From Synechococcales cyanobacterium S06 (lineage in GTDB: Bacteria > Cyanobacteriota > Cyanobacteriia > Cyanobacteriales > JAABRE01): DNA of 37,727 nucleotides. The stretch lies in NCBI GenBank assembly GCA_011391125.1, contig JAABRE010000049.1, positions 1 through 37,727 on the forward strand, given 5' to 3'. Numbering within the stretch: position 1 is the first letter of the stretch; every line of letters begins with the position of its first letter. The position numbers and the translations under genes are program-made. Positions 7,858 through 35,750 of the stretch are shown here, piece by piece. A model generated the notes under the pieces. It was not told where the DNA came from and ran no database searches. It saw nothing but the letters and a program-made list of their open reading frames with translations.

Positions 7858-10800
7858 TTAATTTCCTTTGAATACATTATCAGCACCACTAATAGCATTG
7901 TTGTATTTATCGAGTGCGGAATGAATGCCCTCACCTGCATCGATACCGTAGGTAACAGCAGTATTTCCTTTGTAAACAGTTGGAAGTGCAGATGCACTAG
8001 AAATACCACTACCCCAAGCTGAATTGGGAATCGAGGAAGTAGTAACACCAGTATCAATTAATTTGATCAGGGCACCATCACCTTTGCGATCGCCATTTTC
8101 ATCGAGTGTTAAAGCTTGTAGCCAATTAACACCCTCTTGGAGATAGTAACGAGTATCCTTATCAGTTGTAGTAGCGGTGTCAACGGGGTTACCGGCGAGA
8201 TAATTCAGCCAACTAGCGACCAGACTACGACCAAGGTTGTAAGCTTTGCCATCAATATTGCTGATACCGGCAGGGTGACTGTCCGAATCAACAATCTGCT
8301 GTGCTTGCTTAACTGTGTAGAAGAGGGTATCTTCACCGGTGTCGGTCAGACCATTGCGGTTGAAGTCACCAATGAGCAACCCTTTCGTATATTCTCCAGT
8401 GACAGGATCGACAACCTTTCCGGGTTCAGCGGAGTTGGTATAGGGTGCGAAAAGAAGGTCACTGTCAGCGAATCCAGATTGATTTCTTTGTTCAGCTTCA
8501 TTACCTTGCTCACCATCCCAGAATGTCTGCCAATTTTTCCAGAATCCAGGAGTCCGAACACCAGGAGCAATCAAGTCAGTATCAGTAGCACTGTTGTTGT
8601 TAGGATCGCTATCTGTAAAACCAGTGGGAGCTTCCACCGTTGCTGTATTGATGACAGAATTTGAGGTAATAGAGCTCAGACTTTTAACAGTAGCATTGAC
8701 TGTATAGGTAATGCTGCTACCTCCGGCCAAGGTAACAACATCGTTAATGTTACCTGTACCACTGACTTGATTATCTGTTGCGCCTCCAGTTGCGGTGCTA
8801 GTCCAAGTAACATTGGTGAGATTACTGGGCATTTCATCGCTTACCAGAGCATTGGTAGCACTAAAAGTACCATTATTTTGAACCACAATGGTATAGGTGA
8901 GGCTTTGTCCCGCGAGGACAGTGGTTAAACCGTCGGTTTTGGTAATCGACAAATCACCGATCTTAACAGAATCATCTGGTTTTTCGACTAAACCCGCATC
9001 AATGGTGGGATTATTTTCACCGGAAGTTAAGGTAACAACTTGAGATTTACCAGTATCTTGAGCAGCATCTGAATCAAACTGATCATTGCCTTGGTTGGAC
9101 TGAGTAAAGTTGTAGCCCACCAGTGGCACAAATTCGACTTGATAGTTACCGGGGGTTAAACTGGTGAAACTGTAGCTTCCCTGATCATCTGTTAAGGTGT
9201 TACTAATTAAATTGCCATTATCGTCTAACAAATTAACAGTAACTCCTTCGACTCCAGTTTCGCCACTATCTTGAATACCATCAGCGTTGCTATCTAACCA
9301 AACTGTATCCCCTAAACTGGCCAATTGATAGATACCAGCGTCAATGGTGGGGTTATGTTCACCAGAAGTTAAGGTAACAACTTGAGATTGACCTGTCGAT
9401 TTATCTGCGTCTGAATCTAAGGTATCTTGATTATTGTTGTTAACATCTTGGCTGGTGAACACATAATCAGAAGGTAAATTAGAGAAAGTTACTTGATATT
9501 CTTCACCGGGGTTAAGGTTGGTAAATTCATAGTTACCAAGAATATCGGTGATGGTAGTGGCGGTGGTGTCATCGGTTGTACCGATAACTCCATCAATACC
9601 ACCTCCGGTTAAGGTGACAGTAATTCCATCAATTCCTGCTTTTCCTTCATCTTGAATACCATTGGCGTTGTTATCTAACCAGACGGTATCGCCTAAACTT
9701 GCTTTTTGCAGTAAACCTGCATCTAGGGTGTCGTTGTATTCACCACTGGTTAAAGTGACGAGTTGGGTTAATCCATTAACTGCGTCTGAATCGCTAGAAT
9801 CGTTACCCACGTTAGCTTTGGTGAAGTCATAACCTTCTGGTGCAATAAATTGGACTTGATAATCTCCAGGGGTTAAACCGTCAAAGCTGTAGCTTCCCTG
9901 ACCATCTGTGGTGGTGGTGGCTACCACTTCACCGTTACTGTCTAACAGGTTAACTGTAACATTACCAATTCCTGCTTCTCCTTCATTTTGGATTCCGTCA
10001 CCATTTTGATCTTCCCAAACTGTATCCCCTAAACCTGCGGTTTCATAGATACCAGCGTCAATGGTGGGGTTATGTTCACCAGAAGTTAAGGTAACAATGG
10101 GTGTAACTCCGTTTACGTCAGCGTCGGAATCTTGGGTGTCATCACCAACATTAGCGGTGGTTAAGACAGAACCTGAAGGGGTGTTGAAGCTTACTTGATA
10201 TTCTTCACCGGGGTTAAGATTTGTAAAGTTATATTGACCATTAACATCAGTTGTGCTGGTTGACGTGGTGTCATCGGTTGTACCAATCACTCCATCAATT
10301 CCACCTCCGGTTAAGGTAACGGTAACTCCAGAAACTCCGGTTTCTCCTGCATCTTGAATACCATTGGCGTTGTTATCTAACCAGACGGTATCGCCTAAAC
10401 TTGCTTTTTGCAGTAAACCTGCATCTAGGGTGTCGTTATATTCACCAGAGGTCAGGGTGACGAGTTGGGTTAATCCATTAACTGCGTCTGAATCGCTAGA
10501 ATCTTTGCCCACGTTAGCTTTGGTGAAGTCATAACCTTCTGGTGCAATAAATTGGACTTGATAATCTCCAGGGGTTAAACCGTCAAAACTGTAGCTTCCC
10601 TGACCATCTGTGGTGGTGGTGGCTACCACTTCACCGTTACTGTCTAACAGGTTAACTGTAACATTACCAATTCCTGCTTCTCCTTCATTTTGGATTCCGT
10701 CACCATTTTGATCTTCCCAAACTGTATCCCCTAAACCAGCAGGTATAAAAAACCCAGAATCAATGGTGGGGATGTATTCACCTGGTTTGACTGTAACAAC

Positions 10801-11796
10801 ACTGGAGATTAAGCCGTCACTGTCGGTGGCATCATTGCCACCTTGATCAGCAGAAGTGACTTGCAAACCTTCTGGTGTTTCAAACTTAACTTTGTAATCT
10901 CCACCGATAACGGTAAAGGAGTAGTTTCCATTGCTATCTGTGGTGGTGGTAGAGATTATTTCATCCTCGCCAATGACTCCATCGCCATTTTTATCACCTA
11001 ATAAATGAACGGTTACTCCGGCAATACCTTGTTCGTTGCCATCTTGAGTACCATTTGCGTTGTTGTCTAACCAAACCCGATCGCCAATTTTTGAAAGTGG
11101 CACATAAAGAAGAACAGTTTGAGCAACTACTTGAACTCCATCCTTGGTTGCATCATCAGGAACTAAAATAAGGCCAATCTTTTGTCCATATTGAGGTACA
11201 AAATTTTGGCCGTTTGCGTAGGCATCACTGAGAATCTGATCAACTTTTACTTGGCTCCATAAACCCAATGTTTGTTGACCTAGACCAGCAACGGAGGCGG
11301 TGTCATCGATCAAGGTCCAGATGGCTCGTTGTACGTCAGCAAAGGGATATTGATCGCCGGCCGAGTAATCTTGGTTAATGATGTAGTTAATTAAACGGAA
11401 TCTTGTCTCTAAAGTTAGATTAGTTGCAACCCCATTAATAGTTACATTGAAACCTTCTTCAAAAACCTTATAGGAGCTTGTGGTGCTAGTGCCCACTAAA
11501 CCATCCGTCCTTAATGAGTCAACATCATAGCTAGAATAAACTTTAGTGGCATAGCTGGTGAAACCATCGGTGGTTGAGGTTTGCCAGTCAATTGGTTTAT
11601 CGACATCAATACAGTTACCATCATAGGTACCAGTGAAAACTCCAGAAGCATCTTGGATGAGGACATCGAAATAGCTGTTAACACCCGATTCTGTAGTTCC
11701 ACTAGTTCTGTAATAGGCATAGGAATAAATAGCTTTTGTGATGGTTAAGTTATCAATCAAACTATTTACTAAACTATCATTATTTGAAGTTGCCAT
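7858..11796 (-). CDS. Large surface-type protein: thioester-like domain, six SdrD-B-like repeats, DUF11-like domain, TPGFWKNW C-terminal domain
   Basis: The 1312 residues form four parts. Residues 1 to about 235 contain Cys62 in YDGNCIDVDKPI and Gln156 in DVQRAIWTLIDD. These resemble the Cys and TQxAIW-type motifs of thioester domains in Gram-positive adhesins, where Cys and Gln form an internal covalent bond. Residues of about 235-935 hold six SdrD-B/CnaB-like beta repeats, each starting near 'LGDTVWLDNNANGIQD', with Asp-rich probable calcium sites. Next is a DUF11-like domain (LSITKTDGLTTVLAGQSLTYTI). The last ~260 residues start TPGFWKNWQTFWDG and include EF-hand-like Asp/Asn clusters. There is no N-terminal signal peptide, LPXTG or PEP-CTERM motif, so the export route is unclear; type I secretion is possible. 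An ACAAGGAT motif precedes the ATG, as it does in the upstream PEP-CTERM gene. Function (adhesion or cell-surface layer) is inferred. Confidence 0.85.
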   Translation of the reverse strand: MATSNNDSLVNSLIDNLTITKAIYSYAYYRTSGTTESGVNSYFDVLIQDASGVFTGTYDGNCIDVDKPIDWQTSTTDGFTSYATKVYSSYDVDSLRTDGLVGTSTTSSYKVFEEGFNVTINGVATNLTLETRFRLINYIINQDYSAGDQYPFADVQRAIWTLIDDTASVAGLGQQTLGLWSQVKVDQILSDAYANGQNFVPQYGQKIGLILVPDDATKDGVQVVAQTVLLYVPLSKIGDRVWLDNNANGTQDGNEQGIAGVTVHLLGDKNGDGVIGEDEIISTTTTDSNGNYSFTVIGGDYKVKFETPEGLQVTSADQGGNDATDSDGLISSVVTVKPGEYIPTIDSGFFIPAGLGDTVWEDQNGDGIQNEGEAGIGNVTVNLLDSNGEVVATTTTDGQGSYSFDGLTPGDYQVQFIAPEGYDFTKANVGKDSSDSDAVNGLTQLVTLTSGEYNDTLDAGLLQKASLGDTVWLDNNANGIQDAGETGVSGVTVTLTGGGIDGVIGTTDDTTSTSTTDVNGQYNFTNLNPGEEYQVSFNTPSGSVLTTANVGDDTQDSDADVNGVTPIVTLTSGEHNPTIDAGIYETAGLGDTVWEDQNGDGIQNEGEAGIGNVTVNLLDSNGEVVATTTTDGQGSYSFDGLTPGDYQVQFIAPEGYDFTKANVGNDSSDSDAVNGLTQLVTLTSGEYNDTLDAGLLQKASLGDTVWLDNNANGIQDEGKAGIDGITVTLTGGGIDGVIGTTDDTTATTITDILGNYEFTNLNPGEEYQVTFSNLPSDYVFTSQDVNNNNQDTLDSDADKSTGQSQVVTLTSGEHNPTIDAGIYQLASLGDTVWLDSNADGIQDSGETGVEGVTVNLLDDNGNLISNTLTDDQGSYSFTSLTPGNYQVEFVPLVGYNFTQSNQGNDQFDSDAAQDTGKSQVVTLTSGENNPTIDAGLVEKPDDSVKIGDLSITKTDGLTTVLAGQSLTYTIVVQNNGTFSATNALVSDEMPSNLTNVTWTSTATGGATDNQVSGTGNINDVVTLAGGSSITYTVNATVKSLSSITSNSVINTATVEAPTGFTDSDPNNNSATDTDLIAPGVRTPGFWKNWQTFWDGEQGNEAEQRNQSGFADSDLLFAPYTNSAEPGKVVDPVTGEYTKGLLIGDFNRNGLTDTGEDTLFYTVKQAQQIVDSDSHPAGISNIDGKAYNLGRSLVASWLNYLAGNPVDTATTTDKDTRYYLQEGVNWLQALTLDENGDRKGDGALIKLIDTGVTTSSIPNSAWGSGISSASALPTVYKGNTAVTYGIDAGEGIHSALDKYNNAISGADNVFKGN
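9631..10743 (-). repeat. Near-identical ~410-bp segments repeated at 702-bp offset within the repeat gene
   Basis: Bases 9631-10041 and 10333-10743 differ at only a handful of positions and are exactly 702 bases apart. The flanking DNA is homologous but more diverged. Each 702-base unit encodes two successive SdrD-B-like repeats, one of 'EDQNGDGIQNEGE' type and one of 'LDNNANGIQD' type. This points to recent duplication or gene conversion of a repeat pair. Confidence 0.85.
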
Positions 11797-11903: not shown

Positions 11904-12128
11904 TTAGGGTTTGTTTTTGAAGGAATCTGTCCATTTTTTAACCAAGATTGAACCGCCAATAAAAGTAATTCCTAATAGGGGGCTGGGTTCAGGGACTTGT
12001 GAGGGATCACATAATCCCAATTCAAACAGTTCGGGTGTACAATCACCCTCAGCAGAAGCGGGCAGGGGGGATACGGACATCATGATGGCGAGGGAAGCAC
12101 CGGCAATGGTCAGAACATTTTTCAACAT
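11904..12128 (-). CDS. Small PEP-CTERM sorting-domain protein
   Basis: This 74-residue protein has a signal peptide (MLKNVLTIAGASLAIMMS...ASAEG). A short mature part with two cysteines follows (GDCTPELFELGLCDPSQ). It ends in a PEP-CTERM tail, VPEPSPLLGITFIGGSILVKKW plus a basic end. PEP-CTERM tails direct recognition by exosortase and cleavage or anchoring at the cell surface. Only about 22 residues remain between signal and sorting tail, so the mature product would be a tiny peptide. An ACAAGGAT motif lies before the ATG. The gene is 107 bases upstream of the large repeat protein on the same strand, suggesting a shared transcript. Confidence 0.8.
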   Translation of the reverse strand: MLKNVLTIAGASLAIMMSVSPLPASAEGDCTPELFELGLCDPSQVPEPSPLLGITFIGGSILVKKWTDSFKNKP

Positions 12129-12437
12129 TAATATAATCCTTGTAAGTTATGAATTTCGGTAATTGTTTAAGTTATGTAATCATAATAGGTTACATACTTA
12201 AGTTAAACATCGGCCATTTTACTGAATTTTTTGCCTTTGACAACCCCTAAAAGGCGTAACTTTACATAAACTTTATAAAGATTTTAATTTTTGGTCGTTA
12301 ACTTTACAGAAACTTTATAAATTGATAGTGGTATCAATTACCTGATTAGTTATTAAGTTAGGCGATCGCTGGTTAAAGGTGGGTTACGCTGCTACATAGA
12401 CGGGCGACTTCTTAAGGTATAATTTAATACCAAAGTT

Positions 12438-12513
12438 AAGATGGTGGGTTACGCTGCGAAATGAAACTTGTTTGTTTTGCTTCAATGTTGATCTCGCTGC
12501 TAACCCACCCTAC
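12438..12513. repeat. 76-bp element with GGTGGGTTACGCTGC / GCTGCTAACCCACC ends, copy 1
   Basis: The ends are imperfect inverted repeats (GGTGGGTTA...TAACCCACC). The element is nearly identical to 12800-12875, differing at a few positions near the centre. It is small, non-coding and repeated, so it resembles a MITE or a dispersed cyanobacterial repeat. Confidence 0.7.
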
Positions 12514-12526
12514 TAAGAAAATTGTC

Positions 12527-12711
12527 GAAAATTGTAGGGTGGGTTAGGTGGCGAAAATTCTGGCTCTTTATCATGATTTAAAAATCCATAGTTACCCACC
12601 AGTAGGCGATCGCTTGTTGAAAATTGTAGGGTGGGTTAGGTGGCGAAAATTCTGGCTCTTTACCCTGATTTACAAATCCATAGTTACCCACCAGTAGGCG
12701 ATCGCTTGTTC
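12527..12711. repeat. Tandem pair of ~92-bp repeats
   Basis: Bases 12527-12618 and 12619-12711 are direct copies that differ at only a few positions. Each starts GAAAATTGTAGGGTGGGTTAG and ends with CCCACCAGTAGGCGATCGCTTGTT. Each unit carries GTAGGGTGGGTT near one end and a CCCACCAGTAGGCGATCGC segment at the other. Confidence 0.8.
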
Positions 12712-12784
12712 AAGGTGGGTTACGCTGCGATTTAACCGTTGTTAGTTTTGCTCCAAAATCTATCTCGTTGCTAACCGACCCTAC
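12712..12784. repeat. Diverged copy of the 76-bp GGTGGGTTACGCTGC element
   Basis: It begins AAGGTGGGTTACGCTGC and ends GTTGCTAACCGACCCTAC. The length and end structure match the copies at 12438 and 12800, but the interior has diverged. Confidence 0.6.
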
Positions 12785-12799
12785 CAAAGTACAACATTT

Positions 12800-12875
12800 A
12801 AGATGGTGGGTTACGCTGCGAAATGAAATTTGTTAGTTTTGCTTCAATGTTGATCTCGCTGCTAACCCACCCTAC
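12800..12875. repeat. 76-bp GGTGGGTTACGCTGC element, copy 2
   Basis: This nearly identical partner of 12438-12513 ends 24 bases before the stop codon of the CheW-like gene. Its GGTGGGTTA...TAACCCACC ends could fold into a hairpin in the 3' region of that transcript. Confidence 0.7.
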
Positions 12876-12899
12876 AAAATTCATTAAATTAGGTTAAGT

Positions 12900-13411: not shown

Positions 13412-16400
13412 TTATGGGTTAATAATTTTTGCGATTTCTGTTATAAACTCTTGTTCAATATAGGGCTTGGTAAAATAGGAATTAGCTCCTAATTGCTTAG
13501 CCAATTGACGATGTTTAGGATTACCACGGGAGGTTAACATTGCCACCGGAATTTGCAATAATTCGGGTTTTAATCTCCGTTGACTAAGAAACTCAAAACC
13601 ATTCATATTCGGCATTTCAATATCACAAATAATTAAATTAACGCCGGGATTTTTACTCAATTCACTTAACGCTTCTCGGCCATCTTTCGCTTGTAAAACT
13701 AAATATCCGGCTTTTTCTAAAGTAAGGGCTAAGGTTCGACGTAAAGCGCTGGAATCATCTACAACTAAAATCCGAGAGGCTAAAATGCTGAGATTTGGGC
13801 TTAAATTACCCAAATCCGAGTCATTTTCGCTAATTAAGGGACTTTGATCTTGGGCAAAATGGTAATCAATCAACAAAGCACCGTCAATAACTGGAATAAT
13901 ACTGCCATCGGCCAAAATGGTACAACCAAATGTATATGATGGTGCTTTGATCACGCTACCAAAGGGTTTAATGACCAATTCTTGTTCAGTCACTAAACGT
14001 TCAACTTCCAGGGCAAAAATATGTTGTTCACGACGCAAAATAAGCAGGGGAAAAGCCCAATCTTTAGGAGCATCGACAACGGTTAAAGCTTTACTAAGAA
14101 TGGTGGAAGGTAGAGGACAATTATACTGCAATAAATCTGATAATTTATAATGAGGAATTAACTTATTTTGCCAATGGAAAAATGTGCCTGATCCGCTTGT
14201 TTTTATTTGTTCTGGATTGGGAATAATAATTTCTTCAACGCTATCAGAAGGTAAAGCAAAAGCACTATTTCCGCACAAACAAACTAACAGTTTAGAAATG
14301 GTTAAAGTCAGAGGTAAACTAAGGATAAAAGTTGTTCCTTCTCCGGATTCGGAAATAACGTTAACACTGCCTTTAATGGCGCGTAATTGGGTTCGTACAA
14401 CATCTAAACCAACACCTCGTCCTGAAATTTCACTAACTTTATCTGCGGTAGAAAATCCGGGTTCAAAGATTAAGTTAGATAAACGTTCTTTACTGGCTAT
14501 TTCTGTTTGTTCTTTAGTTAATAAACCTTTTTGAATCGCTTTATTTTTGATCTTGTATAAATCAATTCCTTGACCATCATCTTTGATTTCAATAATAGTT
14601 TGGTTACCTTTATGATAGGAATGAATTGTAATTTCTCCCTGTTCTATTTTGCCAAATTTTTGTCTCAGTTCAGTAGGTTCAATTCCGTGATCAAAGGCAT
14701 TTCTTAGCAAGTGTAATAAAGGATCATAAAGCTTTTCTAAAATTACCTTATCGACTAAAACTCCTGCTCCTGTTACTTTTAAATTCACGGATTTCTTGTA
14801 GGTGGTTGATAAGTCTCGCAAAACTCGAGGAAAGCGGTTAAGTATTTCCGATAAAGGTAACATCCTCGCCCACATTAATTCATCCCGTAAATTAGTGAGC
14901 ATTTGCCGTTGTCCCTGTAAGGTTTGATTAGATAAACGAGCAAATAAGGTAATGTCATCCACCGCTTCTTCTACCTGCATCATTTCTTCTACTACTTCTT
15001 GTAGTAAGTTATGAATTTGACTGTAACTATCCATTTCTAAGGAATCAAATTCACCATTATTTGTGATTAATTCCGTTGAATTTGAGCCCTTTTCTTTAAT
15101 TTTACTTCCTCTTACTTTGTCTGATTCAACAAGGGTTTTATCAGACAAATCTCGAAATTTATTGGTAATAGTTTGAAACTGAGTAAAACGACGAACCAAT
15201 TCGCGCACATTTCCCTGTAATTGTTCATTTTGTAGGGAAAGACTGTTACGATTAATTGTTAGTTCACCCACTAAATTATTCATTCTTTCTAATCTGTTTA
15301 CATCCACCCGAACCGAGAAACTCGTTTGGTTTTGATTTTGAACTACGGGTGCTGGTATTGCTGTGTTAACTTGGTCAACGGTGGTTATTTTGCTTTTTTG
15401 AGCTTTTTTTTGTCGCTCTGCTTTGTTGTTGCGAGCTTCCAGGCTGGGCAATTGTTCAAAAATATCGGGCAAAGATTGCAGAGCTTCATCAAGAGTAGCC
15501 GGATTTGGTAAGTTTTGCTGTTCTTCGGTTTCGATGGACTCGAACATATCGTCCAAATCGGGGGTTTCTGACTCGATTTCCCCAAACATATCCTCCAAAT
15601 CAGGGGTTTCTGACTCGATTTCCCCAAACATATCGTCCAAATCGGGGGTTTCTGACTCGATTTCCCCAAACATATCCTCCAAATCAGGAGTTTCTGACTC
15701 GATTTCCCCAAACATATCGTCCAAATCGGGGGTTTCTGACTCGATTTCCCCAAACATATGGTCCAAATCAGGAGCAGGTAAATTATCGCTAAAAAAAGCT
15801 AACCAACCGGCGGAAGGCCGGCCTCCTTCGGTGCGATCGCCCGCCAAAACTCTCTCCCTACCGCTCAAAAAATCAGCGATGGCTAATTCGGTAATGGCGA
15901 TCGCCTGGTCAGGATGTCGCTCCAGAGCGGCTTCTGCGGTTTTGGCAATCTCACCAAAACCAGGTAAATTGAGGAGTTCTGCAAATCCAGCAAAAACTTC
16001 AGCGGCCGCGCGCAATTCCCCTCCCACTTGATAATCTTGGGGATTGGCCAAAACGGTTTTCAGGCGATCGATTTCTTGACCGACATCTATGTCGAACATA
16101 GATGCTACCATGTCAATGCCTAAATCACCGGAACTGGGGATATATTCATCAGCATTCATAGCATCGCCAAGTCGATGCTCAATTTGTTCAAATAAAGGAA
16201 TAGCCGAAGCTAAGGCCAAATCTCCATGATGAGAACCGGTTTGAATTTGATCAATCAAAGGTTGACGAAGACAATCAAAAGCTTTTAAAAGTTGGGTTTC
16301 GAGTTCCGTGTCGATAATTACACTATCGTGATAAAGTGCCTTAAAAATGTCTTCAAGTCGGTGAGAAATACTTTTGATAGAATCTAAACCAACACTAGCA

Positions 16401-27442: not shown

Positions 27443-28528
27443 ATGAAATTTGTTAATGAATATCGAGACGGACAAATTGCCCAAAAATATGCCCGTGCCC
27501 TCTCATTTTTGGTGAGTAAATCATGGACAATTATGGAAATTTGTGGAGGCCAAACTCACTCCATTGTCAAATATGGAATCGATCAATTATTACCCCCAGA
27601 AATAACTTTAATTCATGGTCCAGGTTGTCCTGTTTGTGTCACACCGATAGAATTAATCGACGAGGCGATCGCCATTGCGAACCAAGACAACACAATTTTA
27701 TGCTCCTTTGGCGATATGTTACGAGTACCGGGTAGCCAACACGATTTATTAAGCATAAAAGCCACAGGAAAGGACATCAGAATAGTATATTCCCCGTTGG
27801 ACGCAATTAAAATAGCCCAAGATAACCCAACTAAAGAAGTAGTTTTCTTCGGTGTTGGTTTTGAAACCACCGCTCCGGCCACCGCCATGAGTGTTTACCA
27901 AGCATTCAATTTGGGTTTAAAAAACTTCTCGATTTTAGTATCTCATGTGCTCGTACCACCGGCCATGGAAGCCCTGTTATCTTCCCCCGAAACTAGGGTA
28001 CAAGGCTTTTTGTTAGCGGGTCATGTTTGCACCATCATGGGTTACACTCAGTATGAACCGATCGCCCAAAAATACCAAATTCCCTTAGTTGTCACCGGTT
28101 TTGAACCAGTGGACATTTTGCAAGGTATTTATATGTGCATCAAACAATTGGAGGAAAATCGACACGAAGTAGAAAACCAATATAGTCGATCTGTCAAAAA
28201 AGAAGGCAACGAAAACGCACAAAAAATTATCACCGAAGTATTTAAAATAGTAAATCGCAACTGGCGCGGCATAGGAGAAATTGCCGAAAGTGGATTAGGT
28301 TTGCAGGATAAATATATAGATTTTGACGCAAGTCATAAATTTAACTTAACAATAGAAAAGGCTAATCAAAACATAGAATGTATTAGTGGTTTAATATTAC
28401 AAGGTATCAAGAAACCCCAAGAATGTAGCGCTTTTGGTAATAATTGTACACCCGAACATCCATTAGGAGCACCGATGGTATCTTCAGAAGGAGCTTGTGC
28501 GGCCTATTATCGCTATCGTCAAGTATAA
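27443..28528 (+). CDS. hypD: [NiFe]-hydrogenase maturation protein HypD
   Basis: HypD carries a [4Fe-4S] cluster. With HypC it forms the scaffold on which the Fe(CN)2CO group of [NiFe] hydrogenase is assembled, using CN- supplied by HypE/HypF. The 361-residue length is typical. Conserved elements include Cys34 in [10 protein letters not shown], Cys62 and Cys65 in [42 protein letters not shown], and the C-terminal cysteine-rich cluster-binding region [25 protein letters not shown]. No defect is visible. Its usual partner hypE lies 2.3 kb downstream on the same strand, separated by a toxin-antitoxin/IS island. Confidence 0.97.
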
Positions 28529-28561
28529 TTGAAAATATATGATGAGGAAAATAGAACTAAA

Positions 28562-28810
28562 ATGATCACAGGAATTAAACAAAAAGCTTTAGTAGGAAAA
28601 AATGGTAAAGTAGAATTATTTGCTCCAGAATTACCCGAAGGTACATTAGTAGAAATAATTATGTTAGTTGAATCTGAAATAGAAGATGAAACAACTTATT
28701 TACTAAAATCAAAAGCTAATAAAAAACATTTAATGGAAGCAATAGAAAATGTAAAACAAGGTAATCTTATTGAGGTTGATCTAAATGAACTTGAGAAAAA
28801 TCTTGTTTGA
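28562..28810 (+). CDS. Antitoxin of a YoeB-type toxin-antitoxin module, with YefM-like tail
   Basis: The 82-residue product has two halves. The N-terminal half (MITGIKQKALVGKNGK, ELFAPELPEGTLVEI) resembles small beta-strand antitoxin-type proteins rather than the YefM fold. The C-terminal part (TTYLLKSKANKKHLMEAIEN plus VDLNELEK) matches the YefM tail that wraps and neutralises YoeB. The toxin ATG overlaps the last codons, the usual antitoxin-toxin coupling. The ATG at 28562, with GAGG upstream, is preferred to TTG 28529, which touches the hypD stop. Because the toxin gene is destroyed, this antitoxin is now an orphan. It might still autoregulate or counter other YoeB toxins. Confidence 0.75.
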   Translation: MITGIKQKALVGKNGKVELFAPELPEGTLVEIIMLVESEIEDETTYLLKSKANKKHLMEAIENVKQGNLIEVDLNELEKNLV

Positions 28811-28954
28811 ACCTAAAGCATTTGATCAATTAAAGCAATGGATAAAAGAAGATCAAAAAGTAAGTAAAAAAATTTTAGCCTGAATCAGAGAAACTCAAAA
28901 AAATCCGTTTTCAGGAATAGGAAAACCAGAACCATTAAAATATAAATTACAGGG
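28785..28954 (+). pseudogene. YoeB/Txe-family toxin, 5' half, disrupted
   Basis: ATG 28785 begins MNLRKILFEPKAFDQLKQWI. The frame continues through KNPFSGIGKPEPLKYKLQG, a strong match to YoeB mRNA interferases, which cleave ribosome-bound mRNA. Codon 33 is TGA (28881-28883) where the family has a hydrophobic residue, consistent with a single-base change from TTA. The reading frame then breaks after LQG, where the IS607-family element begins. The remainder resumes at 30353. The full toxin would be about 89 residues. Two independent lesions make it non-functional. Confidence 0.85.
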
Positions 28955-29024
28955 TAAGCGACAGTTAACAAAAATTTACCTAAAACTTTCTAAACTTACT
29001 CACTTTATATGCTAAGCTCATAAA

Positions 29025-29630
29025 ATGAGTAAGTTTTTAACGATTTCGGAAGCAGCGGAGTTAAAAGGAGTTAGTCCCTCAACCTTGAGGAGATGGGAGA
29101 CAGAAGGAAAATTGATACCATCGAGAACCCTTAATGGACATAGACGGTATGAATTATCGCAATTGTTGAACATCAAAAAAGAACTATCTTTTACCGTAGG
29201 ATACGCAAGAGTTAGTAGCCATGACCAAAAAGAAGATTTATCTCGCCAAATTCAAGTTTTAGAATTATTTTGTGCCGCCCAAGGTTGGCAAGTCGAAATA
29301 ATAAGTGATTTAGGTTCTGGACTTAATTATAGTAAACGTGGTTTAAAACGTTTAATTAAGTTGATAACAGATAATCAAGTAGAAAGATTGGTTTTAACTC
29401 ATAAAGATAGATTATTAAGATTTGGTTCGGAATTAATTTTTAGTCTTTGTGAAATATTTGGCACTGAAATAGTAATAATTAATCGTACAGAAGATGCTAG
29501 TTTCGAGGAGGATTTAGATAAAGATGTTTTAGAAATTATTGCAGTTTTTTCAGCTAGATTATATGGCAGTCGTAGCCATAAAAATAAAAAAATTATTGAG
29601 GAGTTAAAAGAAGTTGCTAATCGGCTTTAA
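29025..29630 (+). CDS. tnpA: IS607-family serine recombinase TnpA
   Basis: This 201-residue transposase has an N-terminal MerR-like helix-turn-helix (FLTISEAAELKGVSPSTLRR...GHRRYELSQLL). A serine-resolvase catalytic domain follows. The nucleophile is in VGYARVSSHDQKEDLSRQ. The fold continues through SDLGSGLNYSKRGLKRL and the conserved LVLTHKDRLLRFG. Length and order are complete for IS607 TnpA, and no frameshift or stop is seen, so it may be active. It probably mobilises the element through a circular intermediate. It overlaps the start of the tnpB remnant (TTG 29614), as in many IS607 elements. Confidence 0.92.
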   Translation: MSKFLTISEAAELKGVSPSTLRRWETEGKLIPSRTLNGHRRYELSQLLNIKKELSFTVGYARVSSHDQKEDLSRQIQVLELFCAAQGWQVEIISDLGSGLNYSKRGLKRLIKLITDNQVERLVLTHKDRLLRFGSELIFSLCEIFGTEIVIINRTEDASFEEDLDKDVLEIIAVFSARLYGSRSHKNKKIIEELKEVANRL

Positions 29631-30143
29631 AACAGAATTGAAACCCAATAATGAACAAAAAACGACTGTGATTTTCTTGATTTATTTGATGCTTGATGAT
29701 TAAGTTACCTGTTAGGAAACCTCACAAGTAACTTAATCATCCATAATCACATAAATCATTTAATCATAGTCAAAGATACACTACATAAGTTAACTACCTA
29801 TTTAGCCAAAAACCACGGCACAGTACTAATTGAGGACTTAAATGTATCGGGAATGATGGCAAACCATAAATTGGCAAAAGCGATCGCTGATATGGGTTTT
29901 TACGAGTTTAGACGACAATTAGAATATAAAACTAAGCTTTATGGAAGTCAATTAGTAATTGTTGACCGATTTTTTCCTAGCTCGAAAACCTGTTCTAATT
30001 GTGGTTGTAAAAAAGCTGATTTAACCTTGTCAGACCGCATTTTTAAATGTGATGATTGTAGTTTTGAGTTAGACCTTGACCTCAACGCTGCAATTAATTT
30101 ATCAAAAGTGGCAAGCTCTGCCATTTATAGTGATTCCAATTAA
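29614..30143 (+). pseudogene. tnpB: TnpB, internally deleted
   Basis: TnpB is the RNA-guided nuclease related to Cas12. The first ~18 codons survive (LIGFKTELKPNNEQKTT from TTG 29614) and then run into a TGA at about 29698. The C-terminal ~125 codons survive in another frame: VKDTLHKLTTYLAKNHG, the RuvC-II segment LIEDLNVSGM, a zinc ribbon begun by SKTCSNCG, and the RuvC-III segment LDLDLNAAINL. About 240 residues are missing, including RuvC-I and most of the nucleic-acid recognition part. The junction is occupied by a long imperfect hairpin. Nuclease function must be lost. An isolated C-terminal peptide from ATG 29853 (96 residues) could still be made. Confidence 0.85.
29664..29771. repeat. 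Long imperfect hairpin at the tnpB deletion junction
   Basis: The left arm 29664-29708 and right arm 29728-29771 are complementary over ~45 bases with several mismatches and a one-base gap. The innermost 14 bases (GATGATTAAGTTAC and its complement) pair perfectly, around a 19-base loop. The hairpin begins as the tnpB N-terminal homology ends and stops as the C-terminal homology begins. Confidence 0.75.
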
Positions 30144-30165
30144 GATTAAAACAGTTGAAAAATAG

Positions 30166-30187
30166 GTTCGTAGTTGCGCTTTAGCGC
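30166..30187. repeat. Dispersed palindromic repeat, inverted copy of 16669-16690
   Basis: GTTCGTAGTTGCGCTTTAGCGC is the exact reverse complement of the spacer repeat at 16669-16690. It is followed by TTAGGACTAAAGTCC, itself a short palindrome. It lies 22 bases after the tnpB stop. Confidence 0.7.
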
Positions 30188-30352
30188 TTCTTAGGACTAA
30201 AGTCCAACAACAAACTAAAAACTTTTGTTTAATTTTTATTTGGAATTACTATAAAGCCTCTGTATCTAGTAAGAGCCTACTCTCTAGCTATGAATGAGGA
30301 AGAAAACATTAAATTTATCTTTGGTAAATTTTCGTCAGGTTTTTTAGAGCGG

Positions 30353-30452
30353 TTATTGGTCAAGAAGAATTACCGATGAACACAGATTAGTTTATCAAGT
30401 ACAACAAGATATTTTAATTATTATATCTTGTAAATATCATTATGATGTTTAA
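30353..30452 (+). pseudogene. YoeB/Txe-family toxin, 3' half
   Basis: The frame reads YWSRRITDEHRLVYQVQ, DILIIISCKYHYDV and a stop at 30450-30452. This is the conserved end of YoeB, including the catalytic-region His-Tyr. Joined to the 5' half at 28954, it restores a complete ~89-residue toxin apart from the TGA at codon 33. No start codon or ribosome-binding site suggests separate expression. Confidence 0.88.
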
Positions 30453-30474
30453 TTGTTTTAACTAACTTAAATTA

Positions 30475-30602
30475 ATGATTACATTGTATCCAGAATTAAC
30501 TTAACAGAAGAGGAATTATGATCTGATTTAGAAAATTTATCGACATATTTTTTTGTTAAAATAATACCAGAAAAACTAACTAAAAATAGGAGCAAAATAT
30601 GA
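30475..30602 (+). pseudogene. Unidentified small gene remnant coupled to the HicB-like gene
   Basis: ATG 30475 opens MITLYPELT and stops. In another frame the sequence continues INLTEEEL, a TGA at 30519-30521, then SDLENLSTYFFVKIIPEKLT and a final stop at 30600-30602. That stop overlaps the ATG of the HicB-like gene as ATGA. Such overlap is typical of toxin-antitoxin pairs, so this may be a decayed partner, but it does not look like HicA. Family unknown. Confidence 0.35.
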
Positions 30603-30796
30603 AAAGAAATTTTACTTTAGAATACTGGTTAGATGATGGTTGGTATATTGGTAAATCAAAAGAAGTTCCGGGTGTTTTTAGTCAAGGTGAAACCTTAGAG
30701 GAATTAGAAGAAAATATCCAAGATGCTTATGAAATGATGACAATGAATAAAATATCCTTTGCGCCTTTGCGCCTTTGCGTGAGAAAATACCCATAA
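30599..30796 (+). CDS. HicB-like antitoxin, C-terminus replaced by a repeat
   Basis: The 65-residue product has the HicB partial-RNase-H-like fold: FTLEYWLDDGWYIGKSKEVPGVFSQGETLEELEENIQDAYEMM. HicB proteins neutralise the HicA mRNA interferase. A strong AGGAG ribosome-binding site lies 7 bases before the ATG. After residue ~53 the sequence becomes CCTTTGCGCCTTTGCGCC..., a non-coding repeat typical of cyanobacterial spacers, giving an unrelated tail (FAPLRLCVRKYP). No HicA gene follows. It is probably a truncated, orphan antitoxin, though the fold may be nearly complete. Confidence 0.7.
   Translation: MKRNFTLEYWLDDGWYIGKSKEVPGVFSQGETLEELEENIQDAYEMMTMNKISFAPLRLCVRKYP
30756..30784 (+). repeat. 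CCTTTGCG short repeat fused into the hicB-like frame
   Basis: CCTTTGCGCCTTTGCGCCTTTGCGTGAGA contains an 8-base unit three times. Similar CCTTTGCG-type strings occur in cyanobacterial intergenic DNA. Here it supplies the last residues of the HicB-like product. Confidence 0.6.
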
Positions 30797-30838
30797 CTAT
30801 ATATTATTTTAAATAACTTAGCACATTTATCTAAAAAT

Positions 30839-31867
30839 ATGAAAAATTTTAACATTTCTTGTCCCATTTCTATTAACCAATATCCCCATGTTTTATTAGC
30901 CCATGGTGGGGGTGGAAAGTTAATGCAGCAGTTAATTGAAAAGATGTTTTTAACGGCTTTTTCTAATCCGAATCAGGTACAACATGACGCGGCAACTTTG
31001 TCAATTCCCACTGATAAAATTGCCTTTACAACTGATTCCTATGTGGTACAACCACTATTTTTTCCGGGGGGAGATATTGGGAGTTTAGCTATTAATGGAA
31101 CAGTGAATGATTTGGCCATGGCCGGAGCAAAACCTTTATACTTAAGTGTCGGTTTTATTTTGGAAGAAGGCCTCCCCATGGACACTTTATGGCGGGTGGT
31201 TCAATCTATGCAAAAAGCGGCGGAAATTGCCGGAGTAAAAATCGTTACCGGTGACACCAAAGTGGTTGATAAAGGTAAGGGTGACGGTATTTTTATTAAT
31301 ACTGCTGGTGTGGGAATTATTGAACATAATCAAGTGATTTCTCCCGTTTCTGTGCAACCGAATGACGTAGTTTTGTTAAGTGGTGATCTTGGCCGTCATG
31401 GGATTGCCATTATGGCTTTACGGGAAGGTTTGGAGTTTGAATCTACCATAGAAAGTGATTGCGCTCCTTTAGCTGATCTGATCTTAAATTTACTAGATAA
31501 CGATATAGAAATTCACTGTTTAAGGGATTTAACTAGGGGTGGTTTAGCAAGTGCTTTAAATGAAATTGCAACTGCCGCCAAGGTAAATATTCATATTAAG
31601 GAAAATACTATTCCGGTTAACGAAAATGTCCAAGGTGCTTGCGAAATCCTCGGTTTTGACCCCCTTTATGTGGCGAATGAAGGTAGATTCATTGTGATTC
31701 TTCCTGAATCTTTTGCTACCAAAGCGTTAGAAATCATGGGAGAAAATGCTTGTCAAATTGGTCAGGTTATGGCAACTAATTCGGGTTTAGTTACCATGGA
31801 AAGTGCGATCGGTGCCACCAGAATTATCGATCTACTCTCCGGTCAACAATTACCCCGCATTTGTTAA
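30839..31867 (+). CDS. hypE: [NiFe]-hydrogenase maturation protein HypE
   Basis: HypE dehydrates the carbamoyl group delivered by HypF to its C-terminal cysteine, forming the thiocyanate that supplies CN- to the HypCD scaffold. The 342 residues contain the PurM-like ATP-binding motif [12 protein letters not shown] and [17 protein letters not shown]. Further motifs are [36 protein letters not shown], and [14 protein letters not shown]. The protein ends exactly at PRIC with the modified cysteine. It is intact. Its promoter must lie within the toxin-antitoxin debris upstream, or the gene depends on read-through from hypD. Confidence 0.97.
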
Positions 31868-34115: not shown

Positions 34116-35750
34116 ATGTATTTTCGTAAAGTTATATTAAGTATATTTGGTGTGATTGCAACTTCCTGTAATCTTAATCAAGTTGCTTTTGCTAGTGATA
34201 ATTTTTCCTTAATTAATAATAGTAATAAACCAATTTTTTTAGCTCAAAATTTAGAAACTTTGCCCAATGAAACCAAGATAAAAGTAACAGAAATCAACGT
34301 ATTAGGAAGTACCATTTTTAATGATCAACAATGGCAAGAAATAGTAGCTCCTTTTTTAAATCAAGAACTTACTTTTGAAGAATTATTAACTTTAAGAACT
34401 ACGATTACTAAACTTTATATTGATCAAGGTTATAGCACTTCCGGTGCATTTTTACCAGTCCAAGATGTCACTGACGGAAAGATCGAAATTCAAGTAGTTG
34501 AGGGGGCGATCGAAAAAATTGACATCCAAGGATTAACCCATTTAGTACCTGGTTATATTCGATCTCGTCTTAGTTTAGCAACAGGTACACCTGTAAATAT
34601 AAACCGTTTAGAAGAAGCATTACAACTATTACAATTTGACCCCTTACTAAAGAAAATAGATGCAGAATTAACAGCAGGAACTACAGCGGGAAAAAATGTT
34701 TTAATGGTTAATGTAACCGAAGCTCCTGCTTTAAATGTATCCTTAGAATTAAATAATTATGATTCTCCTAGTGTCGGTTCATTTGGTCCGACTGGGGTTA
34801 TTGAACATAAAAATTTATTCGGTTTAGGAGATTCATTTTATGCCGATTATCGCTTAACGGAAGGAGTAGATAGCGCTAATATAAAATATAATATACCCGT
34901 TAATGCAAGGGATGGCAAAGTAACTTTTAGTTACGAAAATGATAAAAGTACCATTGTGGAAGACCCATTTTCTATTTTAAATATTAACTCAGAAAGTGAA
35001 ACTTTTTCCCTCGGTTTTCGACAACCTTTAATCCGTAATTCTAAAACAGAATTAGCATTAGGATTAAGTTTAGATATTCGGGATAGTCAAACTTATTTAT
35101 ATGGAGATATACCCTTTTCTTTTAGTAATGGACCTATAGATGGAAAATCAAAAATAACAGCCCTAAGATTTAGTCAAGATTGGGTTAATCGTAGTGCAAA
35201 AACAGTTTTAGCAGCTAGAAGTCAATTTAGTTTTGGTTTAGATTTATTTGATGCAACTGTTAATGAAAATGGCGCTCCTGATGGTAAATTTACTGACTGG
35301 TTAGGTCAATTTCAATGGGTACAATCATTAGGAAAAAATACCATTTTAGTTACCCGTTTAGGTACTCAATTATCCTTTGATTCCCTACTACCAATGGAAC
35401 AATTTAATATCGGAGGAGTTGATACCGTCAGAGGTTATCGTACTAATCAAAGAGTAGGAGATAATGCTGTTATTGGTTCATTGGAATTACGTTTTCCTCT
35501 TGTTAAAAATTCCGAGGCAATTGGTACAATTGAATTAACCCCATTTTTTGACTTTGGTACTGTGTGGAATAACGAAGGAAATATTCCAGATCCTAGCACC
35601 TTATCAAGTGTTGGTTTAGGATTACGTTGGCAAATAAAAGATAACTTTTTTGCGCGTTTAGATTGGGGTATTCCCTTAACAGAAATTGATAATCAAGGTG
35701 ATAGTATTCAGGATAATGGTGTTACTTTTTCCGTTCGTTTTCAACCCTAA
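34116..35750 (+). CDS. ShlB/FhaC/HecB-type outer-membrane transporter (TpsB)
   Basis: This 544-residue Omp85-superfamily protein would export a large partner exoprotein across the outer membrane in two-partner secretion. It has a signal peptide with probable cleavage at AFA-SDN, and a linker to about residue 55. POTRA domains follow (KVTEINVLGSTIFND..., then IEKIDIQGLTHLVPGYIRSRL). A beta-barrel (about 200-544) includes the conserved VDTVRGYRTNQRVGDNA loop. The barrel ends with FSVRFQP, a normal outer-membrane C-terminus. No hemagglutinin-like TpsA substrate is in the window. The receiver-only gene 42 bases upstream may be co-transcribed. Confidence 0.9.
   Translation: MYFRKVILSIFGVIATSCNLNQVAFASDNFSLINNSNKPIFLAQNLETLPNETKIKVTEINVLGSTIFNDQQWQEIVAPFLNQELTFEELLTLRTTITKLYIDQGYSTSGAFLPVQDVTDGKIEIQVVEGAIEKIDIQGLTHLVPGYIRSRLSLATGTPVNINRLEEALQLLQFDPLLKKIDAELTAGTTAGKNVLMVNVTEAPALNVSLELNNYDSPSVGSFGPTGVIEHKNLFGLGDSFYADYRLTEGVDSANIKYNIPVNARDGKVTFSYENDKSTIVEDPFSILNINSESETFSLGFRQPLIRNSKTELALGLSLDIRDSQTYLYGDIPFSFSNGPIDGKSKITALRFSQDWVNRSAKTVLAARSQFSFGLDLFDATVNENGAPDGKFTDWLGQFQWVQSLGKNTILVTRLGTQLSFDSLLPMEQFNIGGVDTVRGYRTNQRVGDNAVIGSLELRFPLVKNSEAIGTIELTPFFDFGTVWNNEGNIPDPSTLSSVGLGLRWQIKDNFFARLDWGIPLTEIDNQGDSIQDNGVTFSVRFQP

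Follow-up and report, generated by a model that had tools for sequence, protein, structure and literature searches.

A cyanobacterial SdrD_B-repeat protein with a predicted class I-like thioester domain and an upstream PEP-CTERM miniprotein gene

The stretch of DNA analysed here (the window) comprises 37,727 nucleotides, positions 1 to 37,727 of contig JAABRE010000049.1 of Synechococcales cyanobacterium S06 (assembly GCA_011391125.1). On its minus strand it contains the gene of a 1312-residue protein, in which a predicted thioester domain (TED) is followed by six SdrD_B repeats, a DUF11 domain and a C-terminal domain opening with the motif TPGFWKNW. A small open reading frame (ORF), located about 108 bp upstream, encodes a protein of 74 residues with a PEP-CTERM tail, hereafter the miniprotein (Table 1). 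A previous description of this DNA, made from the letters only (the sequence-only reading), had reported the thioester-domain-like N-terminus, the repeats and the TPGFWKNW motif, and all of these are found again. The DUF11 domain, the conserved C-terminal Gln226 and the PEP-CTERM ORF are additional to it.

Table 1. Positions in the window of the TED protein gene, its domains and predicted key residues, and the miniprotein gene.
Feature	Position	Strand	Basis or remark
Gene of the 1312-residue protein (TED, six SdrD_B, DUF11, TPGFWKNW)	7858..11796	minus	ORF, ATG start at 11796
Thioester domain, residues 16-235, class I-like topology	11092..11751	minus	AlphaFold2 model, TED fold matches, PF08341 matches of relatives
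Cys62, predicted thioester Cys, in GNCIDVDKPI	11611..11613	minus	End of third strand; kept in 79/79
Gln156, central-helix TQxxPhiW-type Gln, in DVQRAIWTLIDD	11329..11331	minus	Helix 152-163, paired with Trp160 (PMC4450167, PMC6194298)
Gln226, predicted thioester partner, in AQTVL	11119..11121	minus	Precedes last strand; kept in 76/78; end-counting
Six SdrD_B stalk repeats, residues 237-936	8989..11088	minus	Pfam PF17210, six stretches, E 2.7e-195
DUF11 (CLIPPER) domain, residues 948-1073	8578..8955	minus	PF01345, 63 bits, cut-off 24.6
C-terminal TPGFWKNW...LDKYNN domain	7861..8553	minus	Common to the 1542-residue paralog of the same genome
74-residue miniprotein: Sec signal, CTPELFELGLC loop, PEP-CTERM tail	11904..12128	minus	TIGR02595 PEP_CTERM, 17.2 bits, cut-off 16

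The TED protein has a predicted isoelectric point of about 4.05 and contains only one cysteine among its 1312 residues, Cys62. The SdrD_B repeats begin at residues 237, 355, 467, 589, 701 and 828 and include loops of the DxNxNGxxD type that resemble calcium sites. The six repeats and these loops are shared with the B-repeat region of the MSCRAMM proteins SdrC and SdrD (PF17210). The NCBIfam model MSCRAMM_SdrD is matched through the repeat region with a score of 410 against a cut-off of 2500, and in contrast to SdrC and SdrD the window protein has no LPXTG motif. An isopeptide bond has been demonstrated in DUF11, since renamed CLIPPER; its triad consists of Lys715, Asp748 and Asn806, where Asp and Asn lie at +33 and +91 from Lys (PMC12617251). 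Lys953, Asp987 and Asn1050 of the window protein match the spacing of this triad. Compared with PDB 9IFR, a CLIPPER domain from a fibrillar adhesin of Gram-negative origin (PMC12617251), the window domain belongs to the same family, is present as a single copy and has its Asp and Asn at +34 and +97; its isopeptide bond is predicted. The C-terminal domain, in which TPGFWKNW begins at residue 1082, has no match in Pfam, and its AlphaFold model is unusable (predicted local distance difference test, pLDDT, of 34.8). It is 61% identical to the C-terminal domain of a 1542-residue paralog encoded in the same genome (L109, contig C135, 3712-8337), which differs from the TED protein in its N-terminus and has no obvious signal peptide.

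The AlphaFold2 model of the N-terminal domain reached a pLDDT of 79.7 and a predicted template modelling score of 0.83. When this model was compared with the PDB, the top match given by Foldseek was the TED of CpTIE (5a0g; E 5.6e-5, probability 1.00). With VIA-align the best 12 entries were all TEDs, with Z values of 10.2-7.8, and the next entry, an unrelated one, had a Z of 2.3. The resemblance to thioester domains proposed from the letters is supported by structure prediction and comparison with TEDs. In the model, Cys62 closes the DSSP strand 56-62, Gln156 is localized on the middle helix 152-163 and Gln226 lies before the last strand, a placement that agrees with the TEDs described in PMC6194298. 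The same paper separates class I from class II TEDs by the shortness of the linker that joins helix 3 to strand P and by the presence of an alpha-0 helix. Here the linker from helix 182-195 to strand 206 counts 10 residues, which is short in the sense of class I, and an alpha-0 helix is present (helix 92-97, which follows strand 84-88 and precedes helix 129-140). Both features of the model fit a class I, rather than a class II, TED. With the class I TEDs of known structure (PF08341: CpTIE 5a0g, Cpa/Spy0125 2xid, SfbI 5a0l and PnTIE 5a0n), the domain shares the predicted fold and topology, the invariant Cys, the last-strand Gln, the central-helix QxxIW motif and the N-terminal place on a repeat stalk. 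It differs from them by its Gram-negative host, the Asn before the Cys, the SdrD_B/DUF11 stalk and the absence of a Sec signal and of LPXTG.

Direct searches of Pfam, NCBIfam and PDB sequences with the window domain detected no TED, and neither did the comparison of the family profile with PDB sequences. A search with PF08341 is uninformative, since it gave no match in the genome itself or in any of 14 control genomes. The TED identity becomes visible only through the fold match and through Pfam scans of the relatives, member by member. Among 57 diverse family members scanned singly, 41 matched PF08341 at E<1 (best 4e-7). Those above the cut-off of 22 bits are a Coleofasciculus metagenome-assembled genome (MAG) sequence (L029, 30.8 bits), a Bacteroidales MAG sequence (L031, 29.2 bits) and L012 (23.6 bits), which is identical in sequence to L033 of Richelia sinica; in L029 and L012 the Cys sits at position 4 of the profile. 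The lack of a direct Pfam match in the window protein would agree with another kind of cyanobacterial repeat-protein head, bearing a VQxAIW motif by chance. This alternative is extremely improbable, given that the fold matches are exclusively TEDs, that relatives exceed the PF08341 cut-off and that Cys62, Gln156, Trp160 and Gln226 are conserved. From the predicted model and the scans of relatives, there is good support for assigning residues 16-235 to the TED fold family.

A protein search in 386 cyanobacterial genomes found the domain in 11 of them, in large ORFs that nearly all contain SdrD_B-type repeats. In the first 11 sequences, Cys62, Asn141, Gln156, Trp160 and Gln226 are kept without exception. 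The alignment of these sequences was then used to scan 84,980 species, each represented by one genome, with the pattern D[VI]QxAIWxL[LI], by which most of the 79 distinct members were collected. As this pattern includes Gln156 and Trp160, their conservation in the scan is partly by construction; the pattern fixed the Gln156 region only, so that the values for Cys62, Asn141 and Gln226 are unbiased. Cys62 and Asn141 are each conserved in 79 of 79 domains, and Gln226 in 76 of 78, the exceptions being L077, an outlier, and L069, whose row looks misaligned. The poor conservation of Cys62 and Gln156 that the sequence-only reading had named as an argument against its own proposal was not observed, both residues being present in all 79 domains (with the reservation just given for Gln156).

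The scan detected 67 loci. They belong to Cyanobacteria, Bacteroidota (mostly Allomuricauda and its kin), Bdellovibrionota, Planctomycetota, Verrucomicrobiota, Chloroflexota, Acidobacteriota and, within the Pseudomonadota, to Accumulibacter, Methylocucumis and Albimonas. Two loci come from archaeal MAGs (Hodarchaeum and Methanosuratincola); these cases are less secure because MAG bins can include foreign contigs. The TEDs treated in the cited thioester-domain papers (PMC4450167, PMC6194298) are from Gram-positive bacteria only. A restriction of TEDs to Gram-positive bacteria is rejected by the present distribution: as predicted, the full signature of Cys, helix Gln and last-strand Gln spans several Gram-negative phyla and archaeal MAGs. 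No report on cyanobacterial TEDs was found in the open-access literature; Pfam/InterPro would already label the relatives lying above the cut-off.

Some members of the family show unusual arrangements. In an uncultured proteobacterium MAG (L024), a single open frame of 4101 residues or more contains four tandem thioester domains. The Allomuricauda/Muricauda loci L036 and L039 possess two neighbouring lipoprotein-type thioester-domain genes in tandem. The Bacteriovoracaceae sequences L050, L051, L057, L060 and L062, from relatives of predatory bacteria, are secreted proteins of about 200 residues that consist of scarcely more than a signal peptide and the thioester domain.

Three TED motifs were set out by Walden 2015 and Miller 2018 (PMC4450167, PMC6194298): the bond-forming Cys on strand C, the central-helix motif TQxxPhiW, and the weak motif PhiQzetaPhiPhi on the last strand, which holds the bond-forming Gln. 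In the solved TEDs the helix Gln hydrogen-bonds the backbone of the Cys, and both this Gln and the Trp of the same motif are dispensable for the bond (PMC4450167, PMC6194298). In the window protein, the Cys motif (C-hydrophobic-hydrophilic) is present as C62-I-D, with a preceding Asn that is not Y, F or L. The helix motif V-Q156-R-A-I-W160 fits TQxxPhiW with V replacing T, and A225-Q226-T-V-L fits PhiQzetaPhiPhi. The structural alignments end at residue 275 of 5a0g facing residue 234 of the model, at 584 of Cpa (2xi9) facing 235, at 268 of SfbI (5a0l) facing 233 and at 255 of PnTIE (5a0n) facing 234. For Cpa, we take the bond-forming residue to be Gln575. The corresponding residues are Gln267 in CpTIE, Gln261 in SfbI and Gln247 in PnTIE (PMC4450167). 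Counting back from the ends, and presuming no gap across the last 7-9 residues, the bond-forming Gln of 5a0g, 2xi9, 5a0l and 5a0n all correspond to residue 226. The predicted bond is therefore between Cys62 and Gln226.

The sequence-only reading had paired Cys62 with Gln156. Its choice of the Cys stands, and its description of Gln156 is correct as to the residue. A thioester between Cys62 and Gln156 agrees with the conservation of Gln156 in 79 of 79 domains, and in 10 of 10 relatives collected without the Gln pattern. It is nevertheless very unlikely, as the equivalent helix Gln is not essential in the solved TEDs, where the last-strand Gln forms the bond (PMC4450167, PMC6194298), and as end-counting leads to Gln226. 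For these reasons Gln156 was rejected as the bond partner.

Concerning export, the residues 1-40 of the window protein contain no hydrophobic core (the highest Kyte-Doolittle mean over 11 residues is 1.15), which indicates no signal peptide, and no sorting tail or LPXTG is found at the C-terminus, whose last residues are SGADNVFKGN. Both absences had already been pointed out together with the statement that export was unexplained; the absences hold, and export now appears less mysterious. None of the cyanobacterial, Accumulibacter and Methylocucumis members with a visible start has a signal peptide and, with the exception of L021, they start at or near the TED, while in the other phyla most members carry a clear signal of the Sec or lipoprotein type. 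L021, on a contig of Cyanobacteria bacterium RI_101, has an RTX/Peptidase_M10_C C-terminal end above the Pfam cut-off. Such a tail is a typical feature of proteins secreted by the type I route. The genome under study encodes a type_I_hlyD protein above cut-off, with an HlyB-like ABC ORF 4.5 kb from hlyD. The absence of a Sec signal, together with the RTX end of one relative, makes type I secretion the likely export route. Export through an FhaC/ShlB-like ORF of the window (34116-35750) was considered and set aside on sequence grounds, the TED protein having neither a Sec signal nor a recognisable two-partner secretion (TPS) domain.

The miniprotein is composed of a MLKN...ASA signal, a VPEPS motif, a transmembrane segment and a basic VKK tail. 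In its family the distance from signal to tail is mostly 20-40 residues, usually with a C-x(6-18)-C loop. Similar co-oriented ORFs are found upstream of the TED gene at L012, L017, L022, L023, L026, L032, L040 and L049. A motif scan of 384 kb of cyanobacterial DNA recovered nine such ORFs (the window and these eight loci), every one at a TED gene. The nine-sequence profile gave full-length matches in 4 of 373 cyanobacterial genomes, all upstream of TED genes; the match in G209, a sequence outside the profile, lies at a TED locus and has lost the PEP motif. Weaker matches are almost all limited to the tail and concern longer proteins. In the TED tree, the carriers of the miniprotein fall into one group of 15 rows with modest support (86/88), and the Nostocales/Accumulibacter branch has no miniprotein, as is also true of the Calothrix branch. 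Exosortase processes the PEP-CTERM proteins of cyanobacteria, for which a role in linking polysaccharide to the cell surface was proposed (PMC12188702). The miniprotein has the same Sec signal and C-terminal tail (PEP motif, transmembrane segment, basic residues) as these proteins (PMC12188702), from which it differs by its tiny size and its linkage to TED genes.

From this gene linkage, the miniprotein is likely an envelope-side partner of the TED protein in this clade. Alternatively, this PEP-CTERM gene and the TED gene could be unrelated neighbours without a common function, as about half of the cyanobacterial TED loci lack the miniprotein (the Nostocales branch, L030 and L074). Such independence is rather unlikely when 9 of 9 ORFs in 384 kb are directly upstream and co-oriented, when the full-length family is confined to TED loci in 373 genomes, G209 included, and when the carriers cluster in one part of the TED tree. 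In the window, repeated intergenic tracts (12400-12880), GGTGGGTTAGC... and CGCAGCGTAACCCACC, with GCGATCGC palindromes, lie upstream of the miniprotein gene.

We propose that the TED protein is a long extracellular fibrillar protein of the cyanobacterium. Its class I-like N-terminal part of about 220 residues would form an internal thioester by condensation of Cys62 and Gln226, which the amine of a target Lys, or another nucleophile, would open to give a covalent link. A stiff stalk would be made up of the six SdrD_B repeats and the DUF11 domain, with its predicted isopeptide bond. A type I secretion system would probably carry the protein out of the cell in a single step. Outside, it would probably serve within cell-surface or sheath material as an adhesin or cross-linker that binds covalently, with the miniprotein as likely envelope-side partner. 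Of this proposal, the predicted fold, the conservation of the residues, the domain architecture and the linkage of the two genes are shown, while the bond, the secretion route, the covalent target and the part played by the miniprotein are inferred. Since a TED head is combined with a DUF11 domain containing the triad, the design is TIE-like. The window protein shares with the Gram-positive thioester-isopeptide-ester (TIE) proteins the head and a stalk in which one or more isopeptide domains are predicted (here DUF11/CLIPPER), while it has no Sec signal or sortase anchor and is probably type I-secreted. We give this explanation as a whole a probability of about 0.8.

Several observations weigh against it. 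The window sequence itself has no PF08341 match in the Pfam scan, and residue 61, just before Cys62, is an Asn where relatives carry Trp, Tyr or Phe. The assignment of Gln226 depends on gap-free end-counting and not on the Cys62-Gln226 distance in the model. Pfam finds no RTX repeats in the protein, which also has no known type I secretion signal. In type I export the N-terminus exits last, and display of an N-terminal TED after such export is unexplained. Finally, no covalent target is known.

Thioester formation in the window TED is likely. Covalent adhesion or cross-linking by the protein is plausible, with roughly even chances. The thioester could instead form without serving covalent binding, the bond being a mechanical or folding lock or the domain a non-covalent ligand-binding head; none of the Gram-negative members has a known target, and loops restrict access to the thioester in Gram-positive TEDs (PMC6194298). 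We regard this as unlikely, because the thioester contributes negligibly to stability (Miller 2018) and because Cys and Gln are kept across phyla despite very different stalks, which suggests selection on the reactive bond. Going beyond the covalent adhesin or cross-linker, the TED protein and the miniprotein might work together in Gram-negative cells as a covalent system of two components for anchoring or cross-linking, in which the exosortase-processed miniprotein, or the polymer to which it is joined, would be the covalent acceptor or anchor point of the TED. This extension is decidedly doubtful. If it is true, a fibre secreted by the type I route would be fixed to the sheath or outer surface independently of a sortase. 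The miniprotein offers an experimental handle on the possible fixing site of such a fibre.

Elsewhere in the window, the region 15400-16000 encodes a CheA-like protein with near-identical ETPDLDDMFGEIES repeats, and the opposite strand of this stretch is also open. The region 27443-31867 contains HypD-like and HypE-like ORFs about 2.3 kb apart, and the gap between them includes an IS607-type resolvase ORF (29025-29630).

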